In this document: piece by piece, positions 6,992 through 33,655 of the stretch
Layout: every line of letters begins with the position of its first letter
Numbering within the stretch: the stretch's first letter is position 1
Source of the DNA: Accumulibacter sp.
GTDB taxonomy: Bacteria; Pseudomonadota; Gammaproteobacteria; Burkholderiales; Rhodocyclaceae
Assembly: GCA_031280565.1 (NCBI GenBank)
Contig: JAITGN010000082.1
Coordinates: forward strand, 1-33,731
Length of the DNA: 33,731 nucleotides
Reading direction: 5' to 3'
Notes under the pieces: model-generated
Told to the model about the DNA's origin: nothing
The model's input: the letters and a program-made list of their open reading frames with translations, nothing else
The model's database searches: none
Made by a program: the position numbers and the translations under genes

Positions 6992-7083
6992 AACAAAAAA
7001 CTCTCAAAATCCTCCACGCGACGCATGCCGCGTGAAGGTCAATGACGGAGGAAAGCAGCGAAACGGGGCCTCGGCCCCCTTGT

Positions 7084-7252
7084 CATCGTAAAAGCAACTC
7101 CGGTTTGAAACCCCGGCCGCAAGAAAGGCGCGAAGGTTGAGACCGCTTGATCGGCCAGGGCGCTCGACCGCAGCCATTGGCAAGGGGCTTCTCTCCCCTT
7201 CTAATGACGTTAGACCGGCAACGGCTTCCGGGCTGCCGCCAATTTCATGCTG
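7084..7252 (+). repeat. Multi-hairpin repeat, copy 1 (decayed)
   Basis: Shares CATCGTAAAA..AACTCCGGTTTGAAACC, GCCATTGGCAAGGGG, AATGACGTTAGACCG and GC..AATTTC.TGCTG with the copies at 12676 and 32395. Confidence 0.85.
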
Positions 7253-8075
7253 CGGCCAGTCTCTTGGGCAGTTCCTTGGGCCAGGGATAAAGAAACCAGG
7301 GACTTTCCGGCACTTTCAAAAGCCAGTCGGTTTTTTTGTTGATGAACGTGCGTCCCAGAATGGTGTTTGTGCCATCCTCTTTTTCCCCCTGCCGGTAGCT
7401 TTCGGCGTAATCCTCCCAGGAATCGAAAAGAGGAAACCCCAGGCTCACGATAGCGCTCATCCAGTCATAAACGGTGTCCCTGTCGATATACCCCAGCGCC
7501 GCGCTGACCGTCGCCAGGTAGGAAAAACGCGCCATCCAGAGCGCCAGCAAGGGTTTGCTCGACGAAAGCTCCTTGCCGTCCGGAAGAAGATTCTTCATTC
7601 TCCGAAGCGCGCCGCGCAACGTGTTCTCGTCCGCATCGTCATTTTCACCACAACCCTCACGCCCGATCGCATCGTCCAGCGTTTCTCCAAAAACAAGCGA
7701 CACAATGCAGCTTTCCACTTCGGAAAAACGTTCCCGCAATGTCGCGCGGTCTTCCACATCGAAATCCCGTTTGAGGTATCCGGCCATCTCCTCCAGGCAA
7801 TCTTCGTGAACTTCCATGCTTAACGAATAATAGGGTTTTCTGTTATCCCGCTTCGCCCGCGCCGCGTCGTCTACGAAAATTTCCCGCAGCGGCGCGCCAA
7901 GCAGAACGACAAAAATTTCTTCCGGCGAAAGCTGCGCGGTTTTTTCATCCAGCGTCCGCGCCAGAGCAGCCTTTGCCACTTCTTCCTTCGCGGCTTCCTG
8001 GGCAAGCTCTTCCCGGGCTTCGGCCACGCCTTCCATCACAGCGTCTTTGAGTTCCCTAAAAAAACTGAATATCAT
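7245..8075 (-). CDS. DUF1266-like protein
   Basis: 276-aa ORF; C-terminal LWMARFSYLATVSAALGYIDRDTVYDWMSAIVSLGFPLFDSWEDYAESYRQG resembles the DUF1266 pattern (family from memory). Confidence 0.55.
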   Translation of the reverse strand: MIFSFFRELKDAVMEGVAEAREELAQEAAKEEVAKAALARTLDEKTAQLSPEEIFVVLLGAPLREIFVDDAARAKRDNRKPYYSLSMEVHEDCLEEMAGYLKRDFDVEDRATLRERFSEVESCIVSLVFGETLDDAIGREGCGENDDADENTLRGALRRMKNLLPDGKELSSSKPLLALWMARFSYLATVSAALGYIDRDTVYDWMSAIVSLGFPLFDSWEDYAESYRQGEKEDGTNTILGRTFINKKTDWLLKVPESPWFLYPWPKELPKRLAAA

Positions 8076-12625: not shown

Positions 12626-12675
12626 ATAAGGAAATAGACGAAAAACCGCTTGGAAACGATGTTTTATTTTTTATT

Positions 12676-12845
12676 CATCGTAAAACTAACTCCGGTTTGA
12701 AACCACGCCCTTCAGGGCGGTGCGGAGGTTGGACCCCCGGCCTGAAGGCCGGGGTTTCGACCGTAGCCATTGGGGAGGGGATGCAACCCCCTTCCCAATG
12801 ACGTTAGACCGACAGCCCTGAAGGGCTGTCGCTAATTTCTTGCTG
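12676..12845 (+). repeat. Multi-hairpin repeat, copy 2 (most intact)
   Basis: Four successive hairpins: CGCCCTTCAGGGCG; CCCCGGCCTGAAGGCCGGGG; CATTGGGGAGGGG-ATGCAAC-CCCCTTCCCAATG; GACAGCCCTGAAGGGCTGTC. Same ends as the other copies. Confidence 0.92.
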
Positions 12846-32394: not shown

Positions 32395-32533
32395 CAGCAA
32401 GAAATTAGCGACAGCCCGGAAGGCGCTGTCGCTCTAACATCATTGGCAAGGGGATTGCATCCCCTTGCCAATGGCTACGGTCGAAACCCCGGCCTTCAGG
32501 GCGGGGTTTCAAACCGGAGTTAGTTTTACGATG
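32395..32533 (-). repeat. Multi-hairpin repeat, copy 3 (hairpins 1 and 2 fused)
   Basis: Reverse complement CATCGTAAAACTAACTCCGGTTTGAAACCCCGCCCTGAAGGCCGGGGTTTCGACCGTAGCCATTGGCAAGGGGATGCAATCCCCTTGCCAATG...GCTAATTTCTTGCTG. Confidence 0.92.
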
Positions 32534-32687
32534 AAAAAATCTGCCAAAAAACAGCGGTATCCCCTGTCTTTTTTCCCCATTTTCGTTAAAATCCCCTCCA
32601 TCGGTTTACGTACAAAAAGAGACGCTACGCCAGACGGGCCGAAACCGGAATTTGTGTTGCGAAATCAAGGAGTTCAAGGAGCGTGTC

Positions 32688-33333
32688 ATGAATTACCCCC
32701 CCCCCCGAGGGATTCTGTCCCTGGCCGCCTGCTAGCCTTCTCCCCACCTGCCTTCCAAAACGCGTAACGCCGTTCCGCTTGACAAGCGGAGCGGCGGCAT
32801 CCCTGTTCTCGACGGGGCGAATCTGGCCCAAACCATTCAGCCGGTTTTGGCCTGGTCGCAACAGTAGGGCGTTCGCAACAGGGGAAACCTGCTCACCCCC
32901 CTGTAAATACCTGCCCGACGAATATCAAGAAATCCTGAGCAACGGCGCAGGCCAGTGGGAAGCGATTCGCAATGCCACATTCGAGATCAGCGAAAGCGGC
33001 CTGTCGCCCAGCAGCGACGCGGTACAAGCGTTCGAGCAGAATGCCAAACAAGCCGCGATCAACCGGGCCAGCGCTGAAATGGCTTACAGGACATCCAGTC
33101 AGCGATTCAACGACATCCAGGTATTGCTGAATCGGGTCAACACAGCGCCGGACGCGAAAGACATTGCCGACCTGCAAGCGCGCATCCAGGCGGAACAGGT
33201 GATGATGCAGAACGAAGCCAATAAGCTGCAGGCGCTGGCCCTGCTCATGGCGGCGCAGCGCGACCTACAAGACCAGCAAGCGAAGGAAATCCGCATGAAT
33301 TCGGGGAAAGGCCCGATGCCCAAAGGCTGGTAA
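32688..33333 (+). pseudogene. Decayed VirB5-like type IV secretion protein
   Basis: Frame 1: MNYPPPRGILSLAAC*...GGIPVLDGANLAQTIQPVLAWSQQ*GVRNRGNLLTPL*; another frame then gives KYLPDEYQEILSNGAGQWEAIRN...QNEANKLQALALLMAAQRDLQDQQAKEIR. Two in-frame TAG, one frameshift and an apparent internal deletion. Confidence 0.75.
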
Positions 33334-33355
33334 TAAACAGTCACGGGGAGCAATC

Positions 33356-33655
33356 ATGGCGGCCAGCGATTTCCATTTTTACTCGCGCATATTCACCGAA
33401 TTGAGCGATGTGCTCTCGTCCTACGTGCAGGCCACAGCGAGCAGCGTTTGCGGCGCGATTTCGCCGGTCGCCACGACACTCCTCACGATCTACGTGATGT
33501 TGTGGGGCTGGTCGATGATGCGCGGCGGTGTCACGGAGCCGATCAGCAAGGTCTTGAATATTCTTCCGGGATTCAATGTTTTTGGCGCCGGGCGATATGG
33601 GCAGGGCTCAGAGACGATTTGGCCGGCACGAAGTTTAATCCGGGGGCTGTACTAG
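33356..33655 (+). pseudogene. Truncated VirB6/TrbL-like type IV secretion membrane protein
   Basis: FYSRIFTELSDVLSSYVQATASSVCGAISPVATTLLTIYVMLWGWSMMRGGVTEPI matches VirB6 N-termini, then diverges and stops at 99 aa. Confidence 0.7.

Follow-up and report, generated by a model that had tools for sequence, protein, structure and literature searches.

The three repeats in the window (the whole 33,731-nt stretch of Accumulibacter sp. contig JAITGN010000082.1 that was analysed) are copies of a short, gene-less mobile DNA element that is present about 90 times in the genome of the host, a presumed termite-gut bacterium. Very probably, these repeats are palindrome-associated transposable elements (PATEs), that is, non-autonomous IS200/IS605-type elements whose movement depends on a Y1 (HUH) TnpA supplied in trans, and the family displays every structural feature in the definition of PATEs that we took from work on Haloquadratum walsbyi (PMC3119063).

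As proposed in a sequence-only reading of the window, the three copies form a genuine family, found at the places, on the strands and with the ends that it gave, and they can be aligned over their full length around a 21-nt core (AACTAACTCCGGTTTGAAACC) with 3 matches in the window versus 0.00 expected from shuffles. Here, the ends are indeed conserved, but the unit starts at CG, with the preceding CAT belonging to a TTCAT target, and the G that was read as the last base is flank. Copies 2 and 3 are both located between genes, and copy 1 reaches with its right end into the 3' terminus of the ORF at 7245-8075, whose stop codon it provides, in agreement with the intergenic or 3'-edge placement that had been described. 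Also as claimed, the element lacks an ORF of its own and has no coding capacity, its units (58-170 nt) being too short for a transposase gene. Adjoining copy 3, the ORFs at 32779-33655 appear TrbJ/TrbL-like (conjugative transfer), as judged by eye only. Further copies with coinciding ends had been named in advance as the test that the family must pass, and these are plentiful in the host genome (2.16 Mb, 145 contigs, 92% complete), where we found 93 left-end matches (≤3 mismatches) versus 0 for the reversed-pattern control. Moreover, a BLAST-type search of the host listed 40 longer copies with 87-100% identity. Many host contigs start or stop within the element, and therefore the repeat breaks the assembly.

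Table 1. Positions of the three copies in the window and of the features of copy 2.
Feature	Position	Strand	Description and basis
Copy 1	7087-7251	+	165 nt; old and diverged; target mutated to GTCAT at 7082-7086
Copy 2	12679-12844	+	Complete unit of 166 nt, four-hairpin class; limits set by empty sites and by flanks (200 left, 132 right)
Copy 3	32396-32530	-	135-nt class, lacking one hairpin; TTCAT target on the minus strand at 32531-32535
Target pentanucleotide TTCAT	12674-12678	+	Flanking DNA, left cleavage site; 157/200 flanks and empty sites
Left-end linker	12679-12698	+	Complement is AAACCGGAGTTAGTTTTACG, which would lie ahead of the ATG if a gene began in the target; sequence and alignment
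Proposed left guide GAAA	12699-12702	+	5' of the first hairpin; co-changes with target between lineages; drawn from the IS608 model
Hairpin H1 (CGCCCTTCAGGGCG)	12706-12719	+	Candidate left imperfect palindrome; fold and alignment; in about half of copies
Long-range stem P1 (GGTTTGAAACC with GGTTTCGACC)	12693-12762	+	Encloses H1 and H2; 97% of cells paired, 26 sequences
Hairpin H2 (CCCCGGCCTGAAGGCCGGGG)	12735-12754	+	Folds
Hairpin H3	12768-12800	+	5 pairs with compensatory changes
Hairpin H4	12810-12831	+	Candidate right imperfect palindrome; 4 pairs with compensatory changes
Right terminus TTGCT	12840-12844	+	Proposed right cleavage site; flanks diverge immediately after

The unit extends from CGTAAAAC to TTGCT and is placed exactly 3' of TTCAT, and its empty sites reveal neither target duplication nor terminal inverted repeats. 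Left flanks diverge up to TTCAT, and right flanks diverge from the first base past TTGCT. In fact, TTCAT is present in 157 of 200 independent left flanks, as compared with 0.13% of all 5-mers, and the counts for its successive positions (T 174, T 196, C 187, A 192, and T 195) give way to little preference further out. On the right side, the +1 base is G in 78 of 132 flanks versus 32% after ordinary TTCAT sites (p = 1e-10). To identify empty sites, the joined flanks (with the element removed) were searched against all collected loci. Without its element, L026 matches L014 with 95% identity over 195 nt (junction TTCAT/C, the slash marking the insertion point), L005 matches the dispersed-repeat copies in L020, L030, and L058 at GTTCAT/ACTTCG, and L134 matches L114. 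Four complete insertions (135, 135, 155, and 168 nt) share one nucleotide position in a single dispersed repeat, and the insertion in L024 lies in a TTCAT that is equivalent to the H4 hairpin loop of related copies. The two ends of the element have no perfect inverted repeat in common. As a separate observation, a second dispersed repeat (core GTTCATACTTCGACAGGCTCAGCACGAACGG) contains TTCAT and serves as a landing site in host loci L005, L014, L020, L030, and L058.

The up to four stable hairpins of the sequence-only reading are borne out by folding, as copy 2 gives z-scores of -7.2 and -7.0 for its two strands as single-stranded DNA and -7.0 as RNA. A consensus made up of three helices (P1, H3, and H4) is 95.5% paired across 26 diverse copies and contains 62 double-change cells, as compared with 20 after shuffling and 3-13 for slid versions, and the pairing of all three helices is thus maintained via compensatory changes in this alignment. 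We also tried four separate local hairpins as the consensus, which fits the alignment more poorly than the P1 structure because H1 is found in only about half of the copies; P1 and the local H1/H2 pairing are alternatives. With H1/P1 on one side and H4 on the other, palindromes are located close to both ends without terminal inverted repeats. The copies fall into size classes of 58, 90, 135, and ~167 nt with one to four hairpins, each with intact ends at many separate sites, and therefore forms without P1 or H3 still spread. Under the IS608 model, the internal hairpin H3 is superfluous, which counts against the PATE explanation with its TnpA, and the compensatory changes of H3 could reflect template switching in palindromes rather than selection. 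In MS502-56 (L117, L136, and L169), we observed a truncated and a complete element separated by ~230 nt of foreign DNA, with varied right flanks and once in tandem, a compound that is as expected if any DNA between a left and a right end can move.

The target and the tetranucleotide 5' of the first hairpin change together, in that a TTCAT target goes with GAAA (Zoogloeaceae, Polaromonas, G330, G372, and N. gonorrhoeae) and a TTTAT target with AAAA (G063, G284, and G386). Here, the switch occurs within two families (G330 versus G386, and G372 versus G063/G284). The co-change has few independent switches behind it, and within Zoogloeaceae the guide is nearly invariant and the comparison uninformative. 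At the same place, the tnpA/tnpB IS605 elements of the order have AAAG with TTTAC and CAAG with TTGAC, and the rule is not followed cleanly by all of the decayed IS605 copies of the host. No right guide was identified under the same pairing rule, which we infer from the IS608 model, where the guide likewise stands 5' of the hairpin and, as in ISDra2, a +1 base preference is known (PMC5934647).

Taken together, the fixed 5' target that is retained, the lack of both duplication and terminal inverted repeats, the subterminal hairpins, and the +1 preference are characteristic of the single-strand transposition that a Y1 TnpA carries out, for which IS608 and ISDra2 serve as our comparison model (PMC5934647). 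Thus, the non-autonomous IS200/IS605-type ends suggested in the sequence-only reading are now well supported by site-specific insertion without duplication, by subterminal hairpins without terminal inverted repeats, and by guide-target co-change. On this model, TnpA would recognise H1/P1 and H4 in single-stranded DNA, GAAA (or AAAA) would base-pair with the target, and a single-stranded circle would reinsert 3' of TTCAT, with recombination between hairpins presumably giving rise to the short forms.

An autonomous element, with tnpA between both ends, was found in none of the fetched host left-end loci or the carrier loci examined, and so the full-length relative sought at the suggestion of the sequence-only reading did not come to light there, which counts against the PATE explanation. 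The PF01797 remnants of the host are of two kinds with ends that differ from those of the element, and its IS200/IS605 genes look decayed. In several carriers (G284, G042, and G004), PF01797 gave no match, another point against it, though MAG assemblies break at repeats; the sampled copies of G284 are 94-100% identical to one another and therefore spread recently. Several candidate partners were considered and set aside. The divergent tnpA/tnpB IS605 elements, the nearest in the order, have TTTAC or TTGAC targets and a TCAA end and do not share the ends of the element, nor do the IS200-like Y1 group or the C87-type Y1. The tnpA fragments beside copies in L049 and C12 stand in opposite arrangements, consistent with nesting, and the G044 hits with tnpA near a left end appear to be IS200/IS605 insertions next to or within a copy and not autonomous elements. 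Among other relics, contig G000:C30 (L058 and L313) has a divergent IS605 tnpA split by another insertion, and L070 (G000:C5) has a decayed tnpB, with a second copy of the tnpB 3' end ~1.2 kb downstream. No tnpA-bearing element with both ends turned up from which the family could be derived. An IscB-bearing element on a Polaromonas naphthalenivorans plasmid shares the left-end design (TCAT/...GTGAAACCCCGGCCTTCAGGCCGGGG). Judging from this likeness, a TnpA of one type may move the IscB-bearing element as well as the present ones.

Beyond the host, copies are found in part of its genus, and among public records, the left end is carried mostly by MAGs with a Zoogloeaceae or Accumulibacter label, along with MS502-56; going by isolate names, most of these MAGs come from termite guts. 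Nine of 398 genomes of the order (host included) have a match, these representing several families, and Polaromonas JS666 plasmid 2 contains one complete copy. Readable relatives follow the same plan in diverged sequence, namely, target, linker, GGTT(T)RAAACC, hairpins, and a terminal ...TTGCT. A related family occurs in two N. gonorrhoeae records, with 18-19 matching places per record, and in NZ_CP119140 (19 places; L330-L338), all four sampled copies are positioned exactly at the start codon of an open frame and have AAGGA upstream in the left end. Both of these records (NZ_CP119140.1 and NZ_CP119142.1, ~2.17 Mb) belong to a plasmid collection, though they appear to be misfiled chromosomes of N. 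gonorrhoeae. With the queries used, viral contigs and phages yielded no copies.

The complement of TTCAT is ATGAA, and 29 of 98 insertions (~30%) lie exactly on a start codon, as compared with 10% of ordinary TTCAT sites (p = 4e-7), with 9 of 98 being within genes versus 58% of background TTCAT sites (p = 1e-22), the site classes here coming from a crude codon-usage classifier trained on window genes, in which wrong frames often score above threshold. Among sites outside genes, the start-codon excess for these 98 classified insertions is not significant (p = 0.12), and therefore the safe claim is that insertion is tolerated at starts no less than at non-coding sites. When ten start-codon genes were compared with Pfam, nine matched a family, including UDP-glucose dehydrogenase (domain from residue 1), FtsX, HisI, FliR, and ProQ. 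In such genes, the ATG is preceded by the left end in its complementary reading, which is CCGGAGTTAGTTTTACG-ATG for the host family, CCAGTAAGGAATTTGG-ATG for G330, CCAAAAAGGAAACAGG-ATG for G372, and CCGAAAAGGAAATACG-ATG for gonococcus. The GGAG or AAGGA that it contains resembles a Shine-Dalgarno sequence, and this end of the element may act as a ribosome-binding site at start-codon insertions. No clear motif of this sort is found in the Polaromonas and G305 left ends. Moreover, the TTTAT lineages have AAGG at the same place, yet ATAAA provides no start codon, which weakens the argument for ribosome binding, and single-position conservation in the left end did not separate a ribosome-binding from a transposition role. 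Upon insertion at a gene start, the left end would become the new ribosome-binding region, with the 5' UTR replaced and the ATG kept. Tentatively, and with somewhat more doubt than confidence, we propose that this transposase-free element docks on start codons via TTCAT and, through the Shine-Dalgarno motif in its left end, provides a portable multi-hairpin 5' UTR with translation kept, and that the REP2-type repeats of Neisseria would then be domesticated members of this IS200/IS605-derived family.

Several other explanations deserve to be weighed against the PATE reading. The hairpin array could represent an omega RNA, a guide-RNA scaffold for IscB/IsrB or TnpB in trans, with the element retained via RNA-guided cleavage of empty sites, and the sequence-only reading had considered such a relic. 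ATGAA, as the complement of TTCAT, fits the NTGA target-adjacent motif of IsrB (PMC9581776), the left end does resemble that of the IscB element on the Polaromonas plasmid, and the internal helices stay paired through compensatory changes. However, Rfam HEARO (RF02033), which was detected on that IscB element as a positive control, is absent from the present elements; an Archaea_SRP match on them was weak and far below the gathering score. IscB was not found in the host or in most carriers, the only host TnpB is a single decayed fragment with other ends, and the 58-nt forms spread as well without internal hairpins, all of which makes this origin highly unlikely. No tnpB was found beside the elements. 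A structured RNA or regulatory 5' UTR that spread by some other route (e.g., recombination), with mobility being incidental, would account for the conserved structure and the many copies at gene starts, but precise empty sites, a fixed target, and coinciding ends at ~200 sites require site-specific mobility, and this already contradicted idea is barely credible.

REP/REPIN elements mobilised by RAYT (REP-associated tyrosine transposase, another Y1 branch) would likewise be numerous, palindromic, and mostly extragenic, and in several carriers there are genes for longer Y1 proteins, comparable in length to RAYTs. Yet the hairpins in the alignment lack the GTAG/CGTC tag that belongs to the REP definition (PMC8266576, PMC3733652), on either side of the RAYT-like genes that we examined there are other repeats and not element sequences, and the units have fixed left and right ends and a fixed pentanucleotide target. 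Consequently, we regard the REP-like element entertained in the sequence-only reading as most improbable. Its further suggestion of a MITE does not hold in the classical sense either, since this calls for terminal inverted repeats and target duplication, neither of which is present.

As a PATE, the element is ordinary in its class, with an interesting consequence on the host side. The findings bring to view a large PATE family in betaproteobacteria, in which a target-guide switch between relatives is visible as a natural form of the retargeting that was engineered in IS608. They also suggest how a gene can remain active after a selfish element has entered at its start codon, a route that would link IS200/IS605 derivatives to the regulatory repeats of pathogenic Neisseria.

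Among known systems, the IscB-bearing HEARO element of P. naphthalenivorans plasmid pPNAP01 has a left end of TCAT/...GTGAAA with CCCCGGCCTTCAGGCCGGGG and shares the target, guide, and hairpin design with the present family, but it encodes IscB, has HEARO RNA, and its other end is unlike. In the REP2 repeats of Neisseria, a ribosome-binding site is located directly before the ATG. As with the gonococcal copies of the present family, these are repeats upstream of genes, and the gonococcal copies may be REP2 repeats, an identity that we suspect. REP2 has been described as a regulatory repeat and not as an IS200/IS605 derivative, and is reported to affect pilC1 and crgA expression from its upstream position (PMC3898611). 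IS608 and ISDra2 share with the family an insertion 3' of a tetra- or pentanucleotide, a guide 5' of the left palindrome, and a +1 preference (PMC5934647), but they encode TnpA, and IS608 uses TTAC and TCAA instead of TTCAT and TTGCT. In the PATEs of H. walsbyi, as here, there is no transposase, no terminal inverted repeats, and no target duplication, and these elements show subterminal palindromes, a 4-5 nt targeting sequence kept on the 5' side, much shorter terminal-only forms, and hosts with few or no intact tnpA. While these PATEs are archaeal, and the likeness is one of description and not of sequence comparison, what we additionally observed in the present family is a covarying internal hairpin (H3), a 58/90/135/167-nt ladder of sizes, and placement at start codons.
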